Assembly (NCBI GenBank): GCA_026005095.1
Contig: BPKK01000007.1
Location: forward strand, 60,837-124,836
Direction: 5' to 3'
Length of the DNA stretch: 64,000 nucleotides
Source: Silanimonas sp.
GTDB taxonomy: Bacteria > Pseudomonadota > Gammaproteobacteria > Xanthomonadales > Xanthomonadaceae
This document shows, one piece after another, positions 52,129-61,461 of this stretch; position 1 is the stretch's first letter; the number at the start of each line of letters is the position of its first letter. The notes under the pieces are model-generated. The model worked only from the letters and a program-made list of their open reading frames with translations, had not been told where the DNA came from and did not search any database. The position numbers were made by a program, and so were the translations under genes.

Positions 52129-53007
52129 ATGGAACAGGTTGGGGGAGTGCTGCGGGTGTTTGGCCTGAGCGGGCAGCTTGGCGAGGCCCTGCGTCGCCTC
52201 GGTCTGCCCGGGCCGGTGCAGGCCTGGTCGCGTCGGCCTCCCGGCGCCGAAATGGCGACACGCGATCTCGCTGCCGGCATCCACTGGCAGGCCGGCGATC
52301 TTGGCAGCCTGGTGCTTGCGCCGGCCGATCTTCCGGTGCTGAGCCTCGGCCCGCTCGATGCCTTCGCCGCCGCCGTCGCCGAAGGCCGTATCGAGGCGCC
52401 GCGGATCATCGCCTTCGGTTCCACCAGCCGGCATGCCAAGGCCACCTCCCCCGATCCGCGGGAGCGGGCCCTGGCCGGGCGGCTTGCCCGGGCCGAGGAA
52501 CTGCTCTTCGAGGCCGGCGCGCGGCGCGGCAGCCTGGTGTTCTTGCTCCGGCCCACCCTGGTCTGGGGCATGGGTCGCGATGCCACCCTGAGCCGGGTGG
52601 TGGCGAAGGCGCGTCGGCAGCCGCGCCTGCCCTTGCCGCTGGATGCGCCGGGCCGGCGCCAGCCGGTGCATGCCCTCGATCTCGCCGCCCTGGCCCTGCG
52701 CCTGCTCCGGGCTCCGGCCTCGGTGGCCGGGGCCTACGACCTGCCGGGGGGAGAGACCCTGGCCTTTGGCGAGATGTTGGGCCGCGCCCTGCGGGCCGGC
52801 GCTCCGGGGGCGCGGCCCCTGCCGCTGCCTTGGTGGCTGCTACGGCCCGGCGCCCTGCTGCCCGGTCCCTGGCGTGGGCCGCTGTCGCGTCTGGCCCAGG
52901 ATCTGGTCTTCGACGATACCCCGGCCCGAGCCCTGCTCGGCTGGTCGCCGCGCGGTTTCCGGCCAGTGCCAGAAGATTTCCCGGAGCGCCTGGAGGCCCC
53001 CGTCTGA
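52129..53007 (+). CDS. Atypical SDR / NAD(P)-binding epimerase-like protein
   Basis: 292 residues. GLSGQLGEALRRLGLPG near the N-terminus is a GxxGxxG nucleotide-binding loop, and FLLRPTLVWGMGRDATL plus QPVHALDLAALALRLL and GAYDLPGGETLAFGEM are extended-SDR features. The catalytic Tyr-x3-Lys is missing where it should follow FGSTSRHAK, so it may bind a nucleotide without normal epimerase chemistry. The ATG at 52129 has a GGGGAGGG ribosome site; an earlier ATG at 52084 lies inside the dyad. Position alone in a divergent pair gives no pathway hint. Confidence 0.75.
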   Translation: MEQVGGVLRVFGLSGQLGEALRRLGLPGPVQAWSRRPPGAEMATRDLAAGIHWQAGDLGSLVLAPADLPVLSLGPLDAFAAAVAEGRIEAPRIIAFGSTSRHAKATSPDPRERALAGRLARAEELLFEAGARRGSLVFLLRPTLVWGMGRDATLSRVVAKARRQPRLPLPLDAPGRRQPVHALDLAALALRLLRAPASVAGAYDLPGGETLAFGEMLGRALRAGAPGARPLPLPWWLLRPGALLPGPWRGPLSRLAQDLVFDDTPARALLGWSPRGFRPVPEDFPERLEAPV

Positions 53008-53058
53008 GGCCCTGCGGCGGCGCTGCAGTGCGGGGTTTGGCCGCCATACGCCGGAGCA

Positions 53059-53088
53059 TTGCGTTTCCGCGTAACGGACTCTTAAGAT
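53059..53088 (+). promoter_or_regulatory. Candidate sigma-70 promoter for the DUF1302 operon
   Basis: TTGCGT at 53059-53064 and TAAGAT at 53083-53088 are 18 bases apart, leaving a leader of about 135 bases before the DUF1302 start. This is the best two-box match in the 223-base gap. Confidence 0.4.
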
Positions 53089-53230
53089 CGGGAGGCCATC
53101 ACGTTAGAGCTTTCCTTCTACACGCCCCGATGTGCCCCTGCCTGCCTGCCAGCGCCAGTGGTTTCCGATCCGGCCCCCTGCCGGTGGCCCGCCTCTTTCC
53201 CGTCCCCGTTCCCGTTCCGAGGAAGTCCTG

Positions 53231-55276
53231 ATGAAGTCCATCCACCCCCTGCGCGGTGGTTTCGCGCTCGCCCCGTTGGCCGCGGCCGTCGGCTTCGCCC
53301 TGCTGGCTCCTGCCGCCCATGCCTTCGAGTTCGGTAGCGGCGAGTTCACCGGCAGCATCGACACCACCGTCTCCTACGGCTACTCGTGGCGTACCGAGCG
53401 CCAGGACCCGAACCTGATCGGCAAGGCTTACTTCAATCCGCTGATCTGCGCCCAGAACCGCGCAGTGCTGCCGATCCCGCCGGCTTCCATGACCAACCCC
53501 TTCCCGGCCTGCTCCTCGGGCTTCCCGGGCTCGGCCGCGCAGATCGCCGCTCCCGGTCGCTTCTCGGTCAACCGCGACGACGGCAACCTGAAGTACGACA
53601 AGGGCGATGCCATCGCCAACACGGCGAAGATCACCTCGGAGATGAAGCTGGCCTGGCGCAACTGGGGGGCCTTCACCCGCGCCACCTACTTCTATGACTT
53701 CGAAAACGCCGACCGCGCCGACCTCACCCGCGAGGCCAAGGACCGCATCGGCGAGCGCTTCCGCCTGCTCGACGCCTTCGTCTTCCACAACTTCAACGTC
53801 GGCGAGCAGAGCGGCACCTGGCGCCTCGGCCGCCAGGTGATCAGCTGGGGCGAGAGCACCTTCATCCAGAACGGCATCAATGTCATCAACCCGGTCGATC
53901 TCTCGGCCCTGCGTGTCGCTGGCGCCGAGCTGAAGGAGGCCTTCCTGCCGGTCGATTCTCTCTGGGCCAGCTTCAATCTCACCGAGAACCTCGCCGTCGA
54001 GGGCTTCTACCAGTTCGAGTTCGAGGAAATCGAGGTCGATGCCGCCGGCACCTACTTCAGCTCCAACGACTTCGCCACCCCGGGCGGCACCTACGTGATG
54101 CTCGGCTTCGGCACCGTGCCGCAGCCGGTGAACAACCCCGAGCGCTTCTTCTCCACCTGCTTCGGCGGCCCGGCGGGCTTCCTCAACACCGACCTCAACT
54201 ACACCAACCTGCCGCCGGGCGTGACCAACGCCACCATCGCCAGCATCGGCTGTAATGGCGCAGTGGCCCGCGCGCCCAACCGCAATGCCCGTGACAGCGG
54301 CCAGTACGGTGCGGCCCTGCGCTGGTTCTCCTCGGCGCTTGGCGATACCGAGTTCGGCTTCTACTTCATCAACTACCACAGCCGCCTGCCGCTGCTCTCC
54401 GGTCGTGCCGTCACCGGCAGCTCGCCCAGCACTGGCCGTTTCTTCGTCGAATACCCGGAAGACATTCAGCTCTACGGCCTGTCTTGGAACACCAATCTCC
54501 CGGGCGGTGTGGCCTGGCAGGGCGAGCTGAGCTACCGCCCGAATGCGCCCTTCCAGCTCGACGATGTGGAACTGTTGTTCGCCGCCCTGACCCCGCTGAA
54601 CCCGCTGATCCGCGCCCAGTTCATCGGCCAGGGCCTGCCGCCGATCCCGGCTTACGAATTCCGCAGCCAGCTCGGCCAGGCGGTGTTCGGCCAGGAGATC
54701 CGCGGCTGGCGCGAGCACAAGGCCACGCAGGTGCAGATGACCTTCACCAAGGTCTTCGGCCAGACCCTCGGCGCCGACCAGATCGCCACCGTGGCCGAAC
54801 TGGGCTGGACCCAGGTCGATCTCGATTCCAACCTCCGCTACGAGGGCGAGGGCACCGATACCGGCGGCGGCTGTTCGCTGGCCGATGTGCCGGTGTTCAA
54901 CGGCACCAACATCGCTGCGGTGGCCAACCCGGCCCTGGCCGGCTGCGCCCGCAACCCGGTCACCTTGCGCGGTGGTTTCCCCACCAAGTTCTCTTGGGGC
55001 TACCGTCTCGCCGCCCGCGCCGATTACAACAGCTTCCTCGGCACGGCTTTCACCTTCTCGCCGCGCATCGCCTTCAACCATGACGTGGACGGCACCACCC
55101 CGGGCCCGGGCGGCAACTTCCTCGAGGGGCGCAAGTCGCTCACCGTGGGCGCCGAGCTGAACTACCTCAATACCTGGGTGTTCGACATCGCCTGGACCCG
55201 CTTCAATGGCGGTGGCATCTACAACCAGATCTCCGACCGCGATTTCGCGTCGGCCAGCGTCCGCTACTCGTTCTGA
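53231..55276 (+). CDS. DUF1302 family outer-membrane protein
   Basis: 681 residues with a signal peptide (residues 1-31, ending AAHA). FEFGSGEFTGSIDTTVSYGYSW begins the mature protein and resembles the first strand of a porin-like barrel. RLGRQVISWGESTFIQNGINVINPVD is the family hallmark, and the end is ASASVRYSF with terminal Phe, as in outer-membrane barrels. Size and composition fit a large outer-membrane channel. Six or more cysteines sit in putative loops. It is followed 20 bases later by DUF1329, its usual partner. No transport substrate is established for the family. Confidence 0.9.
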   Translation: MKSIHPLRGGFALAPLAAAVGFALLAPAAHAFEFGSGEFTGSIDTTVSYGYSWRTERQDPNLIGKAYFNPLICAQNRAVLPIPPASMTNPFPACSSGFPGSAAQIAAPGRFSVNRDDGNLKYDKGDAIANTAKITSEMKLAWRNWGAFTRATYFYDFENADRADLTREAKDRIGERFRLLDAFVFHNFNVGEQSGTWRLGRQVISWGESTFIQNGINVINPVDLSALRVAGAELKEAFLPVDSLWASFNLTENLAVEGFYQFEFEEIEVDAAGTYFSSNDFATPGGTYVMLGFGTVPQPVNNPERFFSTCFGGPAGFLNTDLNYTNLPPGVTNATIASIGCNGAVARAPNRNARDSGQYGAALRWFSSALGDTEFGFYFINYHSRLPLLSGRAVTGSSPSTGRFFVEYPEDIQLYGLSWNTNLPGGVAWQGELSYRPNAPFQLDDVELLFAALTPLNPLIRAQFIGQGLPPIPAYEFRSQLGQAVFGQEIRGWREHKATQVQMTFTKVFGQTLGADQIATVAELGWTQVDLDSNLRYEGEGTDTGGGCSLADVPVFNGTNIAAVANPALAGCARNPVTLRGGFPTKFSWGYRLAARADYNSFLGTAFTFSPRIAFNHDVDGTTPGPGGNFLEGRKSLTVGAELNYLNTWVFDIAWTRFNGGGIYNQISDRDFASASVRYSF

Positions 55277-55295
55277 TGCTCTCGGGAGGGAACAC

Positions 55296-56663
55296 ATGAC
55301 TCTGAAGACGAAGGCTGCCCTCGCAGCCACCCTCGGCACGCTGGCCCTCTCGGCCAGCGTCGCCAGCGCCGCGGTGGATGCCGCCAGGGCGGCCCAACTG
55401 GGCCAGACCCTGACCCCGATGGGCTCGGAGAAGGCCGGCAACGCCGCCGGCACCATTCCGGCCTGGGAGGGCGGCATCACCCGCCCGCCGGCGAACTACC
55501 GCAACGGCATGTTCCACCCGGATCCCTTTGCCGCCGACCGGCCGAAGTTCCAGATCACCCGCGCCAATGTCTCGCAGTACGCGAACAACCTGACGGCGGG
55601 CCAAAAGGCGATGTTCCAGCGCTATCCCACGTTCCGCATGGACGTGTATCCGACCCGCCGCTCGGCCTCCTTCCCGCAGCGCATCTACGAGTACACCAAG
55701 CGCAATGCCACGCAGTGCCGCCTCGTGGCCAATGGCGAGGGCGTGCAGAACTGCGCCGAGGGCTTCCCCTTCCCGATCACCGAGAACGCCTATGAGCTGA
55801 TGTGGAACCACAAGCTCAAGTACAAGGGCGTGGCCGGCCGCCGCTGGGCCAACCGCGTGGCGCCCACGGCCAATGGCCAGTACACGGTGATCCGCCTGCA
55901 GGAGCGCCTGCTCGGCCTGTACTACAAGCCGGGCAATACCTCGGAGAACATCAACAACATCCTCGTGTACTTCCTGCAGGACGTGCTCGGCCCGGCCCGC
56001 CTCGCTGGCCAGGTGCTGCTGGTGCACGAAACCCTGAACGCCGCCGCTGCGCCGCGCCAGGCCTGGATCTACAACCCCGGCCAGCGCCGCGTGCGCCGCG
56101 CCCCGAACGTGGCCTACGACAACCCGGCCACCGCCTCGGACGGCCTCTCCACCAATGACATGACCGACATGTTCAACGGTGCGATGGACCGCTTCGAGTG
56201 GACCACGGTGGGTAAGAAGGAGCTGTACGTGCCGTACAACTCCTACAAGGCCCACAGCGACAGCGCGAAGATTGCCGATCTCGTGCGCCCGGGCCACCTC
56301 AACCCCGACTACATGCGCTATGAGCTGCACCGCGTGTGGGTGATCGAGGCCAAGCTGAAACCCGGCCAGCGTCATATCAACAGCCGCCGCACCTTCTACC
56401 TCGACGAGGACAGCTACCAGATCCTCGCCATCGACCATTACGACGGCCAGGGCAACATCTGGCGCGTCTCCGAGGCGCCCTCGATCAACTACTACGAGGT
56501 ACCCACCTTCTGGTCGACCATCGAGGCCCACTACGACCTGAAGTCCGGGCGCTACCTCGCCGGCCTGCTCGACAACGAGGAAGACCGCCCCTACGACTTC
56601 GGCTTCCAGGCCTCGCCGGCCGACTTCTCGCCGCAGAACCTGCGTTCCGCGGGCGTCCGTTGA
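55296..56663 (+). CDS. DUF1329 family periplasmic (LolA-like) protein
   Basis: 455 residues with a signal peptide (residues 1-25, ASVASA). LGQTLTPMGSEKAGNAAGTIP, then PAWEGGITRPPANY are typical of the N-terminus; LVHETLNAAAAPRQAWIYNPGQRRVRRAPNVAYD spans the core (given here by its key parts LVHETLN and WIYNPGQRRVRRAP), and RTFYLDEDSYQILAIDHYD lies near the end. The family is related to LolA-like lipid carriers by fold, which suggests it ferries a hydrophobic molecule across the periplasm (inference). A GGGAGG ribosome site lies before the ATG. A tandem pair of hairpins follows its stop. Confidence 0.88.
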   Translation: MTLKTKAALAATLGTLALSASVASAAVDAARAAQLGQTLTPMGSEKAGNAAGTIPAWEGGITRPPANYRNGMFHPDPFAADRPKFQITRANVSQYANNLTAGQKAMFQRYPTFRMDVYPTRRSASFPQRIYEYTKRNATQCRLVANGEGVQNCAEGFPFPITENAYELMWNHKLKYKGVAGRRWANRVAPTANGQYTVIRLQERLLGLYYKPGNTSENINNILVYFLQDVLGPARLAGQVLLVHETLNAAAAPRQAWIYNPGQRRVRRAPNVAYDNPATASDGLSTNDMTDMFNGAMDRFEWTTVGKKELYVPYNSYKAHSDSAKIADLVRPGHLNPDYMRYELHRVWVIEAKLKPGQRHINSRRTFYLDEDSYQILAIDHYDGQGNIWRVSEAPSINYYEVPTFWSTIEAHYDLKSGRYLAGLLDNEEDRPYDFGFQASPADFSPQNLRSAGVR

Positions 56664-56668
56664 TCCGC

Positions 56669-56730
56669 CGCGCCACGAAACCGTTTCGTGGCGCGTTCTT
56701 CCCGCGGGCGGCGCCTTCCGGCGCCGCCCG
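56669..56730 (+). terminator. Tandem perfect hairpins between DUF1329 and the YCF48-like gene
   Basis: Hairpin one: CGCGCCACGAAA at 56669-56680 pairs with 56684-56695 around CCG, followed by TTCTT. Hairpin two: CGGGCGGCGCC at 56705-56715 pairs with 56720-56730 around TTCC, followed by TTCTTCTT. They sit in the 84-base gap inside an otherwise tight gene set, so they more likely cause partial termination or mRNA processing than a full stop. Confidence 0.7.
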
Positions 56731-56747
56731 TTCTTCTTGAGGGCCGC

Positions 56748-57833
56748 ATGCCTCCCACTTCCCGCCTCGCCCGGCGATCCCTGCTCGCCGTTGCCGTGCT
56801 CGCCGTTGCCGGCCTTGCTGCCGGCATGGCCAGTGACCTGCCCGCGGACGATCCCGCCCTGCTTTCCTCCGAACTGAAACCGCTTGCGCCCAGGGCCCTG
56901 CTGCTCGACCTGGCCCGTACCAGTGCTGGCATCTTCGCCGTGGGTGAGCGCGGGATCCTGCTGCGCTCCACCGACGAGGGGGCGACCTGGCAACAGCTTC
57001 CCCTGCCGACGCGCCTGCTGATGACCAGCATTGCGGCTGCCGACGGCGATCTGTGGGTCGGCGGGCATGGGGGGCAGATCTTCCGCTCCAGCGACAATGG
57101 CGAAACCTGGGTGCGCCAGCGCATCGATGTCTGGACCCCGGACAGCAGCGATCCGATGGCCGGCGCCCCGGTGCTCGACCTGCTGTTCCTCGATGGCCAG
57201 AACGGCTTTGCCCTCGGCGCCTTCAGCCTGCTGCTGCGCACCCGCGACGGCGGCGTGAGCTGGGAGCCGGTGGAACTGCCCGAGGCCGCTCCGGCTCCCG
57301 AGGCCGCAGCGGCGACGGATGGCGACTGGACCTTCAGCGCCGAGGAACTGGAGCTCGCCGACGAAGCCGATCCGCATCTCAATGCCATGGTGGCCCTGCC
57401 CGATGGCACCCTGATCCTCGCCGGCGAGCGCGGGGCTATGTTCCGCTCGCGCGATGGCGGCGAGCAGTGGGAACGTCTCGACTTCCCCTACGACGGCTCG
57501 ATGTTCGGCCTGCTCGCCTGGGAGGATGGTCACGTACTGGCCTACGGCCTGCGTGGCAATGCCTTCGAGAGCTTCGATGGCGGCGACAGCTGGTCGCGCC
57601 TCGAGACCGGCGGCGAGATCACCCTGCAGGGTGGCGTGGCTCTGCCCGGTGGTGGCGCGCTGTTGGTGGGTAACGAGGGGCTGCTGCTGTTCCGCCCCGA
57701 TGCCGCCTCGCCGCTGGAGCGCGGCACCTTCCAGACCGAGGCCGGCGAGACGCCGGTACTCTCGGGTGCCATGGCCCTCGAGGGCCGTTTCCTGCTGATT
57801 GGAGAAAAGGGAGTAGGCCAGCATGCCTTCTGA
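56748..57833 (+). CDS. YCF48-like (BNR/Asp-box) beta-propeller, exported
   Basis: 361 residues. An N-terminal hydrophobic segment (LLAVAVLAVAGLAAGMA, about residues 12-28) directs export. The rest is a propeller with five visible Asp-box turns of the S-x-D-x-G-x-x-W type: RSTDEGATW, RSSDNGETW, RTRDGGVSW, RSRDGGEQW and ESFDGGDSW. This is the photosystem II stability factor Ycf48-like architecture. In the plant and cyanobacterial protein the propeller aids complex assembly; here it probably partners the RND protein, whose gene overlaps its end by 11 bases. There is no obvious enzyme site. Confidence 0.87.
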   Translation: MPPTSRLARRSLLAVAVLAVAGLAAGMASDLPADDPALLSSELKPLAPRALLLDLARTSAGIFAVGERGILLRSTDEGATWQQLPLPTRLLMTSIAAADGDLWVGGHGGQIFRSSDNGETWVRQRIDVWTPDSSDPMAGAPVLDLLFLDGQNGFALGAFSLLLRTRDGGVSWEPVELPEAAPAPEAAAATDGDWTFSAEELELADEADPHLNAMVALPDGTLILAGERGAMFRSRDGGEQWERLDFPYDGSMFGLLAWEDGHVLAYGLRGNAFESFDGGDSWSRLETGGEITLQGGVALPGGGALLVGNEGLLLFRPDAASPLERGTFQTEAGETPVLSGAMALEGRFLLIGEKGVGQHAF

Positions 57834-60336
57834 GTCGATGCCGCCGATGGGGGGCTTCCAGCGGGCTGCCGACCGCTTCGTCTTCGGCTTCCGCCCGGTG
57901 ATGCTGCTGCTGATCGCGGCGGTCACCGTGGCCATGGTGTTCTTCGCCTCGCAACTGCGGGTCGATGCCGGCTTCAAGAAGCAGATCCCGCTCGCGCATG
58001 AGTACATGCGCACCTACCTCGACTACGAGCAGGAGTTCGGCGGTGCCAACCGGGTGCTGATCGCGGTGATGGCGCGCGAGGGCGACATCTTCAACCAGCG
58101 CTTCATGCAGACGCTGGAGAAGGTGACCCAGCGCGCCATGGCCATCGAGGAGACCGACGACGCCCGCGTGCGCTCGCTGTTCACCCCGAATGTACGTTTC
58201 GTCGAAGTGGTGGAGGACGGCTTCGCCGGCGGCAACGTCATCCCCGACACCTTCACCCCGAACGTCGAGGGCTTCGTTGCCAGCGAGGCCGACTTCGACA
58301 CCATCCGCTCGAACATCGTCAAGGCCAACATCGTCGGCCGGCTGGTGGCAAAGGACTGGTCCGGCGCCATGGTCTGGGCCGAGCTGGTGCCCGAGACCGA
58401 GGGCAACAAGGTCGATTACCAGAAGGTGGCGCGCGAGCTGGAGGCGATCCGCACCGACTTCGAGGATGAGTACCACACGGTGCACATCATTGGCTTTGCC
58501 AAGATCGTCGGCGACATCAGCGATGGCGCGCGCTCGGTGGTGATGTTCTTCGCCATCACCGTGGCCCTCACCCTGGTGCTGCTCACCTTCTATTCGGGTT
58601 CGCCAAAACTCGCCGTGCTTGGCGTGATCTCGGCCCTGGTGGCCGTGGTATGGACGCTCGGCACCCTCCGGCTCATCGGGTTTGGCATCGATCCGATGAA
58701 CATCCTCACCCCCTTCCTCGTCTTCGCCATCGGCGTCAGCCATGGCGTGCAGATGATCAATGGCTGGGTGAACGAGCGCCTGTTCGGCGGCGAGGTGATC
58801 GATGCCGAACACGCCGGCACCGGCTTCGCTCCGCTGGAAGCGGCACGTCGCGCCTTCGGCAAGCTGCTGGTGCCCGGCACGGTGGCCCTGGCCTCCGACG
58901 TGGTGGGCTTCCTCACCATCCTGCTCATCCCGATCCAGATCATCCGCGAGCTCGCCATCACCGCCTCGATCGGCGTCGGCCTCGTGATCCTCACCAACCT
59001 GGTGCTGCTGCCGATCCTGCTTTCCTACACTGACTACCGCGACGCGGCGAAGACCCGGGCGAAGAAACTGGCCCGCCTCGACCGCTTCGATGGCGTATGG
59101 CGTGGCCTGACCCACCTCACCGCCCGCGGCCCAGCCCTCGCCATGGTGCTGGTGGCGCTCGGCCTTGGCGCCTATGGCTACATCGAGGGCCAGGGGTTGC
59201 AGGTGGGCGACAGCGAGGCCGGCGTGCCGGAGTTGCGGCCGGAGGCCCGCTTCAACCAGGACGCGGTGCGCATCTCCGAACGCTTCGCGCTCGGCGTGGA
59301 TGCCATCACCATCATCGCCGAGGCCCGCCCTGATGCCTGCACCCTAAGCTATCCGGCCATGGAACTGATCGACCGCTTCGGCTGGCACCTGCAGAACATC
59401 GAGGGCGTGCAGCAGGTGGTCACTCTGCCCACCGCGGCGAAGATCGTGAACGCCGGCTGGAACGAGGGCCTGCTGCGCTGGCGCGAGCTGCCGCGCAACC
59501 CCGACGATCTGCGCGTCGCCACCCAGGGTTTCGAGACCGACACCGGGCTGCTGAACAACGACTGCTCGGCGATGACCGTCACGGCCTTCCTCTCCGACCA
59601 CAAGGCCAGCACCATCGACCGCATCGTCAGTGCGGTGAAGGCCTTCCGCGAGGAGAACGATGCCTTCGCCGGGCCGGGCGTGAACCTGCGCCTACAACTC
59701 GCCGAGCAGGCTGCCGCCGCGGCCGAGGCCGGCGAGGAGTTCCACAGCGACCAGGTGAACCTGCGGCTCGCCACCGGTAGCGTTGGCGTGATGGCCGCGG
59801 TGAACGAGCGAGTGAAGGAAGCGCAGATGCCGATGATGCTGTATGTGTACGGCGCGGTGATCCTGCTCTGTCTGTTCACCTACCGCTCGCTCGGCGCCAC
59901 CACGGCCATCATCCTGCCGCTGGTGATGGTCTCCCTGCTGGCCAACGCCCTGATGGCCGAGCTCGGCATCGGCCTCAAGGTCAACACCCTGCCGGTGGCG
60001 GCCCTTGGTGTCGGCATCGGCGTGGACTACGCGATCTATATCTACAGCCGCATGAAGGAGTTCCTCGACCGCGGCATGGTGTTGCAGGACGCCTACTTCC
60101 GTGCCCTCAAGCTCACCGGCACCGCCGTGCTGTTCACCGGCATGACCCTGGCCGTGGGGGTGGGCACCTGGATCTTCTCGGAACTGAAGTTCCAGGCCGA
60201 CATGGGCGTGCTGCTGAGCTTCTTCTTCCTGATGAACATGCTTGGCGCCGTGCTGCTGCTGCCGGCCGTGCTGCGCTGGTTGCACCGCGATCGCCCGGCG
60301 GCGGGCGGCGAGGTGGCGCACAAGGCTGCGGCCTGA
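57823..60336 (+). CDS. RND/MMPL-superfamily exporter
   Basis: 837 residues with two RND halves: TM1 (about 26-46), a periplasmic loop, TM2-6 (about 235-400); then TM7 near 430, a second loop and TM8-12 (about 665-820). The second half has the family motif GVGIGVDYAIYIYSRMKE with its conserved Asp in TM8-9. The matching place in the first half reads FAIGVSHGVQMINGW, with His rather than Asp. It belongs with COG1033-type predicted exporters and not with the AcrB drug pumps. A start at the second Met (57838) is possible. A hairpin terminator follows 30 bases after the stop. Confidence 0.9.
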   Translation: MPSESMPPMGGFQRAADRFVFGFRPVMLLLIAAVTVAMVFFASQLRVDAGFKKQIPLAHEYMRTYLDYEQEFGGANRVLIAVMAREGDIFNQRFMQTLEKVTQRAMAIEETDDARVRSLFTPNVRFVEVVEDGFAGGNVIPDTFTPNVEGFVASEADFDTIRSNIVKANIVGRLVAKDWSGAMVWAELVPETEGNKVDYQKVARELEAIRTDFEDEYHTVHIIGFAKIVGDISDGARSVVMFFAITVALTLVLLTFYSGSPKLAVLGVISALVAVVWTLGTLRLIGFGIDPMNILTPFLVFAIGVSHGVQMINGWVNERLFGGEVIDAEHAGTGFAPLEAARRAFGKLLVPGTVALASDVVGFLTILLIPIQIIRELAITASIGVGLVILTNLVLLPILLSYTDYRDAAKTRAKKLARLDRFDGVWRGLTHLTARGPALAMVLVALGLGAYGYIEGQGLQVGDSEAGVPELRPEARFNQDAVRISERFALGVDAITIIAEARPDACTLSYPAMELIDRFGWHLQNIEGVQQVVTLPTAAKIVNAGWNEGLLRWRELPRNPDDLRVATQGFETDTGLLNNDCSAMTVTAFLSDHKASTIDRIVSAVKAFREENDAFAGPGVNLRLQLAEQAAAAAEAGEEFHSDQVNLRLATGSVGVMAAVNERVKEAQMPMMLYVYGAVILLCLFTYRSLGATTAIILPLVMVSLLANALMAELGIGLKVNTLPVAALGVGIGVDYAIYIYSRMKEFLDRGMVLQDAYFRALKLTGTAVLFTGMTLAVGVGTWIFSELKFQADMGVLLSFFFLMNMLGAVLLLPAVLRWLHRDRPAAGGEVAHKAAA

Positions 60337-60366
60337 GCCCACGCGTTTCGCATCGTTGCAAACGAC

Positions 60367-60388
60367 GAAGGGGCCGTGAGGCCCCTTC
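60367..60388. terminator. Terminator between convergent RND and TerC genes
   Basis: A perfect 9-bp stem, GAAGGGGCC at 60367-60375 and GGCCCCTTC at 60380-60388, with a GTGA tetraloop. Little T-tract follows on either strand. Confidence 0.65.
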
Positions 60389-60420
60389 ATCGTTCCGGCT
60401 CGAGGCGGCGTATGTCCGGT

Positions 60421-61461
60421 TCAGCCCCTCGCCTTGCCCCGCGAGACCCAGAGCGACGCCATCACGCCGCCCAGCAGCAGGCCCACGGTGACACCGAGGC
60501 TGAGCATGGCCGGCACCTGCAGGCCGAGCAGGCCGTGGCCGACGAGGATCTTGAGGCCGATGAAGACCAGCACCAGGGCCAGCGCATACTTGAGGTAGTG
60601 GAAGCGGTGCACCATCGCCGCCAGCGCGAAGTACAGAGCGCGCAGGCCGAGGATGGCGAAGATGTTCGAGGTGTAGACGATGAACGGGTCTGGGGTGATG
60701 GCGAAGATCGCCGGCACCGAGTCGATGGCGAACACCACATCGGCCAGCTCCACCAGCACGAGGCAGAGGAACAGCGGGGTGGCGTGCAGCAGGGCAGGGC
60801 TGCCGGGTACGGCGGGCTGGCGCACGAAGAAGCGCTGGCCGTGCAGCTCGCTGGTGAGCCGCAGGCGTTCTTTCAGAACACGCAGTACCGGGTTGTCCTC
60901 GATCGAGGGCAGGGCATCGGCATCTTTGAACATCTTCAGGCCGGTGAGCAGCAGCACGCCGGCAAAGACGTAGAGGATCCAGGCCATGTTGAGCACCAGC
61001 GCGGCGCCGAGGCCGATCATCAGGCCGCGCAGCAGGATCACGCCGAGGATGCCCCAGAACAGTACCCGGTGCTGGTAGATCCGCGGCACCGCAAAGTAGC
61101 TGAAGATCATGGCGATGACGAACACGTTGTCCATCGCCAGCGCCTTTTCCAGCAGGTAGCCGGTGAGGTAGAGCTTCACCGCCTCGGCGGCCCGGCTGTC
61201 GGCATCGGGCAGGGCGGCGATGCGCGGGTCGAGGGCCTCGCTGCCGGCGTAGCGGGCGTAGATCCAACACACCGCAACGGCCCAGAGCAGGCCAAGCCCG
61301 ATGTAGAAGGCCGAGAGCCAGAGGCTCTCCCGCAGCTCGATCTCGTGCGCCTCGCGGTGCAGCACGCCGAGGTCGAAGGCGAGGATGGCAAGGACGACGG
61401 CGAGGAAGCCCAGCCATACCCAGATGGGCATGCCGAGCCAGAGGTCGGACAACAGGTCCAT
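60421..61461 (-). CDS. TerC/Alx family membrane protein
   Basis: 346 residues with nine or so membrane helices. VVLAILAFDLGVLHREAHEI at the start, YLLEKALAMDNVFVIAMIF with the conserved Asp-Asn, and the mirror motif LVELADVVFAIDSVPAIFAIT in the second half define the family. Alx and related proteins export manganese; TerC names derive from tellurite resistance plasmids. Which metal applies here is inference. No Mn riboswitch was recognised in its 155-base leader. It converges with the RND gene. Confidence 0.92.
   Translation of the reverse strand: MDLLSDLWLGMPIWVWLGFLAVVLAILAFDLGVLHREAHEIELRESLWLSAFYIGLGLLWAVAVCWIYARYAGSEALDPRIAALPDADSRAAEAVKLYLTGYLLEKALAMDNVFVIAMIFSYFAVPRIYQHRVLFWGILGVILLRGLMIGLGAALVLNMAWILYVFAGVLLLTGLKMFKDADALPSIEDNPVLRVLKERLRLTSELHGQRFFVRQPAVPGSPALLHATPLFLCLVLVELADVVFAIDSVPAIFAITPDPFIVYTSNIFAILGLRALYFALAAMVHRFHYLKYALALVLVFIGLKILVGHGLLGLQVPAMLSLGVTVGLLLGGVMASLWVSRGKARG

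Follow-up and report, generated by a model that had tools for sequence, protein, structure and literature searches.

In the passages of the literature cited here, the closest described counterpart of our locus is AmeABCD of Castellaniella defragrans: AmeA is a DUF1302 protein, AmeB a DUF1329 protein, AmeC a COG4447 protein and AmeD an RND transporter of the HAE3 type, and such cassettes are treated as one lineage within HAE3 (PMC6394551). AmeABCD sits in a monoterpene island and its deletion lowers monoterpene tolerance; without ameABCD the cells tolerated limonene less well and their uptake of Nile Red under CCCP was higher, and the authors proposed an exporter (PMC6394551). In Pseudomonas putida the genes PP_0765, PP_0766, PP_2018 and PP_2019 are linked by a common need on Tween 20, and co-folding, which predicted contacts, suggested a transport system (PMC10866462). 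A third case is the 'nanopod' cluster of a benzene-degrading consortium, which is expressed and for which the direction of transport was left open; the same source cites work in Delftia where deletion of a DUF1329 gene impaired growth on phenanthrene (PMC13101534). The four families are also predicted in aromatic regulons of betaproteobacteria, with a suggested role in solvent stress. FadL, for its part, has been described as the only known protein for the passage of fatty acids through the outer membrane.

The gene set and its predicted products

The window, a stretch of 64,000 nucleotides from Silanimonas sp., belongs to contig C7 of a 2.45-Mb assembly that is 83% complete. It carries four adjacent genes, all on the + strand and in the order of AmeABCD: a DUF1302 gene (53231..55276; 681 aa, predicted outer-membrane barrel, AmeA type), a DUF1329 gene (55296..56663; 455 aa, predicted periplasmic LolA-like carrier, AmeB type), a gene for a YCF48-type Asp-box propeller (56748..57833; 361 aa, predicted to be exported, AmeC type), and an RND/MMPL permease gene (57823..60336; 837 aa, AmeD type). 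The Pfam scores all exceed their cut-offs, with 577 bits for DUF1302, 510 for DUF1329, 68.6 for PSII_BNR/YCF48 (PF14870, cut-off 27), and 94.7 for MMPL (PF03176), the last match being split in two stretches. A preliminary description had already read four genes in one direction, with spacings of 20 and 84 bases and an 11-base overlap; the genes, the 84 bases and the overlap stand, but the first gap is 19 bases. It was fair in calling DUF1302 and DUF1329 families without a settled function, but what it presented as an unnamed candidate set matches the published AmeABCD in families and order (PMC6394551). The gene set is thus already known, and what is new here is evidence on its direction. The likeness to the other two systems is by family only: in P. 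putida an efflux transporter and a periplasmic protein are the partners of the DUF1302 and DUF1329 proteins, but the genes form two separate pairs (PMC10866462), and the 'nanopod' cluster shares DUF1329, YCF48, MMPL and a porin-like protein with the window, but has extra genes inside (PMC13101534).

Between the DUF1329 and propeller genes, the gap of 84 bases (56664..56747) folds into two hairpins, as had been described beforehand (minimum free energy -51.6 kcal/mol; z -4.5 against 100 shuffles). The second (56704-56731) was scored terminator-like by a terminator scan, a call that is weak taken alone because 52900-60500 holds 3 such calls against 3.0 expected. The hairpin gap may damp transcription. 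Among 20 measurable cassettes of non-Silanimonas relatives 18 have 57-534 bases at the corresponding place and the other two 10 and 13; this gap is usually the widest of the cassette and so sets the barrel and carrier genes, as one pair, apart from those of propeller and permease. Upstream of the cassette lie a CitMHS-type carrier gene and an epimerase-like gene (so named from our reading of its sequence, with no Pfam match at E 1e-4); downstream, on the opposite strand, are TerC, EamA and SAICAR-synthetase genes. At 60370-60385, 3' of the permease gene, a short inverted repeat rich in G+C was seen by eye; the terminator scan did not call it.

The DUF1302 product is predicted to be an Occ/AlgE-like outer-membrane barrel, its model resembling the Occ uptake porins and also the exporter AlgE in fold searches. 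FadL does not appear among the best 50 matches of either fold list, which excludes nothing, and PF03349 (Toluene_X, FadL) has no match in the protein, PF06980 being the sole Pfam match at E up to 0.01. For the DUF1329 product the fold search returned a LolA-type half barrel, in line with the LolA-like exported protein of the preliminary description. Solved Ycf48 chains match the propeller at E 2e-16; its 70 bits with the profile of the Photosystem II factor Ycf48 (NF010237) lie below the curated cut-off of 326, and its export is predicted from the N-terminus only. The preliminary description made the propeller a possible assembly or adaptor factor. A protein recorded under the name Silanimonas lenta shares 98% identity with the permease. 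The hydropathy scan of the permease gives 11 segments, which agrees with the 12 helices proposed earlier but is no proof of them, and the permease scores below the curated cut-offs of both the HAE3 profile TIGR00921 (155.6 against 351.9 bits) and the HpnN profile TIGR03480 (59.8 bits, far below 751.85). The family has remote profile matches to HpnN, MmpL3/5 and NPC1-type RND proteins (a yeast NPC1 relative at E 4e-6), for which we know of no barrel, carrier and propeller partners. An HAE1 tripartite pump is not indicated by Pfam, which found no AcrB-type permease and no membrane-fusion or TolC-type partner in the four proteins and ten neighbouring ORFs. We judge right the earlier view of a four-part set that would, from these predictions, span the envelope.

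Co-occurrence of the four families

Of 40 genomes of relatives, the own genome included, 29 have DUF1302 and as many DUF1329, 28 have the permease and 27 the propeller. All four families occur together in 27 genomes and three of them in the fragmented G038, while G008 has DUF1302 alone and G019 a weak DUF1329 match only. The DUF1302 gene of G008 (G008:C23:298777-300633, locus L048) stands in a genome without DUF1329, propeller or AmeD-like permease that has a strong FadL match. A further 140 genomes, drawn at class level and almost all from different families, were searched for DUF1302, DUF1329 and the permease: 20 carry all three and 114 none; G174 has DUF1302 and DUF1329, and five genomes a weaker DUF1302 match only. 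Some class genomes hold many copies of the cassette families (G061, G116, G134, G141, G171); in the 3.5-Mb genome of G061, for instance, DUF1329 is matched nine times, DUF1302 seven times and the permease four times.

A contig scan listed 581 relatives, 80 of which make up the named loci considered below; their titles include Verrucomicrobia, Desulfuromonadales, Nitrospirota and Alphaproteobacteria, and no Castellaniella or P. putida locus is among these 80 of the 581. All four genes lie on one strand and in the same order in 62 of the 80 (two of these with a doubled DUF1329). The other 18 are mostly contigs that end early; L153, L164, L176 and L188 have full flanks, yet a partner went undetected. 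Tandem DUF1329 pairs between DUF1302 and propeller were seen at L060:6850-10044, L118 and L120. The pairwise distances of the four proteins correlate over 29 loci (Spearman 0.79-0.85, uncontrolled). The co-occurrence for which the preliminary description had proposed a phylogenetic survey thus holds in the 40-genome, class-level and named-locus sets, and rules out a chance arrangement of the four genes (27 of 40 and 20 of 140 genomes).

The permease also matched on 39 plasmid records, nine of which, chosen for being annotated, were inspected. The order DUF1302-DUF1329-YCF48-RND is found in four, DUF1329-DUF1302-RND-YCF48 in three and DUF1329-DUF1302-YCF48-RND in one, while the L036 plasmid has only part of a propeller gene next to the permease. 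Degradation-type genes, judged by name and uncontrolled, lie near most of these nine cassettes. On a P. aeruginosa plasmid (L037:2157-3540) the DUF1329 gene seems interrupted (two overlapping frames) and adjoins acyl-CoA dehydrogenase and CoA-transferase genes.

This distribution bears on the idea that the set shifts endogenous lipid between the membranes in the upkeep of the outer membrane. The LolA fold, the permease's remote likeness to HpnN and the synteny with housekeeping genes in Silanimonas speak for such a role, but the cassette is missing from 12 of the 40 close relatives and DUF1329 from 119 of the 140 class genomes, and cassettes are found on plasmids; we regard this explanation as improbable.

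A phospholipase gene beside the cassette

In most relatives examined a phospholipase gene is part of the operon, as judged from gene order and domains. It precedes 17 of the 18 main cassettes of non-Silanimonas relatives with readable upstream DNA (G005, G028 and G038 could not be judged and are left out of the count); the exception is G015, and the second cassette of G026 has no such gene beside it. In the named loci (80 of 581 listed), clustering of the neighbours showed that in 12 the gene immediately 5' of DUF1302 encodes a Lipase_bact_N protein of ca. 720 aa; the other 68 have no such lipase beside the cassette. Together the phospholipase loci number 29, three of them in both sets, hence 26 distinct. 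The phospholipase and DUF1302 genes lie on the same strand at a distance of 4-50 bases in 28 of the 29, and at L126 the called frames overlap. Most of the 29 lipases carry a G-x-S-x-G motif and 22 a lipobox-like motif, three of the remaining ones being cut at the 5' end. When six neighbour lipases were tested against TIGR03502 (VolA/Pla-1, cut-off 383.9 bits) five passed, and the sixth (L131) reached 354.3 bits.

The window itself has no lipase gene, and the 223-base junction between the epimerase-like gene and DUF1302 (53008..53230) stands at its syntenic place. By tblastn synteny, a VolA/Pla-1-type phospholipase gene lies between the same two genes in two relatives, with the order carrier gene, epimerase, lipase, cassette at L066 and epimerase, lipase, cassette at L053, whereas the window and six other Silanimonas loci pass from the epimerase to the cassette with no lipase between. 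From this comparison the window cassette is most simply read as the orthologue of the five-gene lipase operon, here without its lipase.

A pairing of this sort has a parallel in Vibrio cholerae, where VolA frees fatty acids that are then taken up by FadL transporters, and where vca0863 (VolA) neighbours, by number, the FadL homologue vca0862 (PMC9496633, PMC12208996). It resembles the lipase and cassette of the relatives, but FadL belongs to another Pfam family than DUF1302, and in the cited passages no carrier or RND partner is mentioned for V. cholerae (PMC9496633, PMC12208996). In the portions of the open-licence PMC literature consulted, the only link between a lipase and DUF1302 comes from one paper, which lists an esterase/lipase gene among operons whose predicted regulator is also that of the four families.

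The lipase might also be the cargo: a LolA-like carrier and a barrel could deliver a co-encoded lipoprotein phospholipase to the cell surface, and the LolA fold, the lipobox-like motifs and the growth need on Tween 20, an ester (PMC10866462), would suit such a task. Since no lipase stands beside the cassette in the window and in 68 of the 80 named loci, we think this very improbable.

FadL, the direction of transport and the permease

As a strong FadL match we took PF03349 at E up to 1e-40, a cut-off chosen after seeing the matches. All 12 relatives without the cassette have such a match; of the 28 that carry it, 6 have a strong PF03349 match, 8 a weak one and 14 none. One strong match, in G009, is divided over two contigs. 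The 14 without a match include the own genome and G001, which is 99% complete. Within the family alone, and with one Silanimonas genome kept, the proportions are 12/12 and 2/5 (p 0.015, kinship ignored). The class set gives 61/120 without and 3/20 with the cassette (p 0.003), and likewise 59/120 and 3/20 at E 1e-50 (p 0.006), 68/120 and 3/20 at 1e-30 (p 0.0006), and, for carriers of the FadE C-terminal domain, 44/72 and 2/14 (p 0.002), kinship being ignored throughout. When weak PF03349 matches are counted the difference is gone (78/120 and 11/20, p 0.45), and the cassette is not tied to FadE, which occurs in 14 of 20 class genomes with it and 72 of 120 without it (p 0.46). A strict rule that no genome lacks both FadL and the cassette is true in the 40 relatives and false in the class set, where PF03349 at E 1e-10 finds nothing in 42 of the 120 genomes without cassette; the FadE domain is present in 18 of these 42, so that 18 of 72 FadE carriers have neither the cassette nor any FadL match. 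The pattern fits a partial replacement of FadL.

We propose, with a probability of roughly 0.5, that the cassette imports long-chain fatty acids or similar hydrophobic nutrients, standing in for FadL. Import of acyl chains would account for the phospholipase and the carrier, for the distribution of FadL, for the need on Tween 20 and for the catabolic neighbours; beta-oxidation-type genes lie in the flanks of 11 of the 80 named loci (80 of 581 listed; uncontrolled count). The predicted Occ-like barrel, the LolA-like carrier and the RND-LolA fusions of relatives also favour it. Against import stand the loss of the FadL difference with weak matches, the 18 FadE carriers with neither cassette nor FadL match, the want of a tie to FadE and the missing lipase in the window and beside the cassette of 68 of the 80 named loci.

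The published alternative, that the RND pump takes toxic hydrophobics (terpenes, aromatics, free fatty acids) out of the inner membrane and drives them by way of carrier and barrel to the exterior, as proposed for AmeABCD, best explains the tolerance data. The deletion phenotype and Nile Red results in C. defragrans (PMC6394551) argue for it and count against import, as do the mostly outward direction of RND pumps and the barrel's resemblance to AlgE; the predicted aromatic regulons with their suggested role in solvent stress also speak for export. In the same study, however, real-time efflux was almost identical in wild type and ameABCD mutant, and acetate partly rescued the mutant (PMC6394551); the phospholipase operon, the spread of FadL and the need on Tween 20 in P. 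putida (PMC10866462) likewise fit export poorly. We favour fatty-acid import and consider export possible but rather doubtful. With its "export or exchange" the preliminary description is in line with what has been published; the phospholipase operon of relatives, the FadL spread and the catabolic neighbours point rather to uptake.

Import demands that the RND protein accept its cargo from a soluble carrier and pass it on inward. The DUF1302 barrel would admit the acyl chain; the DUF1329 carrier, by its predicted fold, could take the chain in the periplasm and dock on the permease-propeller unit, which would unload it into the inner membrane at the expense of the proton motive force, much as NPC1 receives sterol from soluble NPC2 in lysosomes. 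Formation of acyl-CoA and beta-oxidation would follow, the own genome having a FadE-type domain. The fatty acids would come, in most of the relatives examined, from the predicted surface phospholipase encoded in the operon, whose gene is missing at that place from the Silanimonas loci examined.

More tentatively than for import as such, we envisage a proton-driven second route for long-chain fatty acids across the outer membrane (a barrel, a LolA-like shuttle and an NPC1-like RND receiver, paired with a surface phospholipase). This route would take the place of FadL in many Proteobacteria and would, on plasmids, have been turned to terpenes, aromatics and further hydrophobic substrates. If so, an RND system with Ser-His in TM4 and its only relay Asp in TM10 would serve outer-membrane import. 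If the cassette can replace FadL, many bacteria have an energised alternative to it; DUF1302 and DUF1329, widespread families of unknown function, would gain a task, and the direction of AmeABCD-type systems would become testable.

The permeases of the cassettes share a signature in these helices. Ser-His in TM4 (S306-H307 here, codons 58738..58743, + strand) is found in 37 of 37 aligned cassette permeases, and Asp-Tyr in TM10 (D735-Y736, codons 60025..60030, + strand) in all 36 that reach that site. The TM4 pair recurs in 81 of 82 permeases of the named loci among the matches listed, a count that is not quite independent, as one of the two search patterns abuts the motif. Eight other RND proteins of the relatives were compared near the H307 site: five have Asp aligned with H307, one Asn and two Ser-Tyr, so that loss of the TM4 acid is not unique to the cassette; the fixed Ser-His is the cassette permeases' own mark in the sample compared. 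The Asp of HpnN lies in the first half of the protein, with none in the second, whereas the cassette permeases have theirs in the second. By analogy with known RND pumps, protons would pass at the TM4/TM10 site. A related system, in which pump and carrier are fused in one protein, is represented by RND/MMPL proteins of ca. 1060-1090 aa (L102:5524-8802, L104:4582-7791, L103:6187-9357) with an additional hydrophobic segment and, at the C-terminus, a domain that is LolA-like or a weak DUF1329 match; the one at L102 adjoins a weak DUF1302-like barrel.
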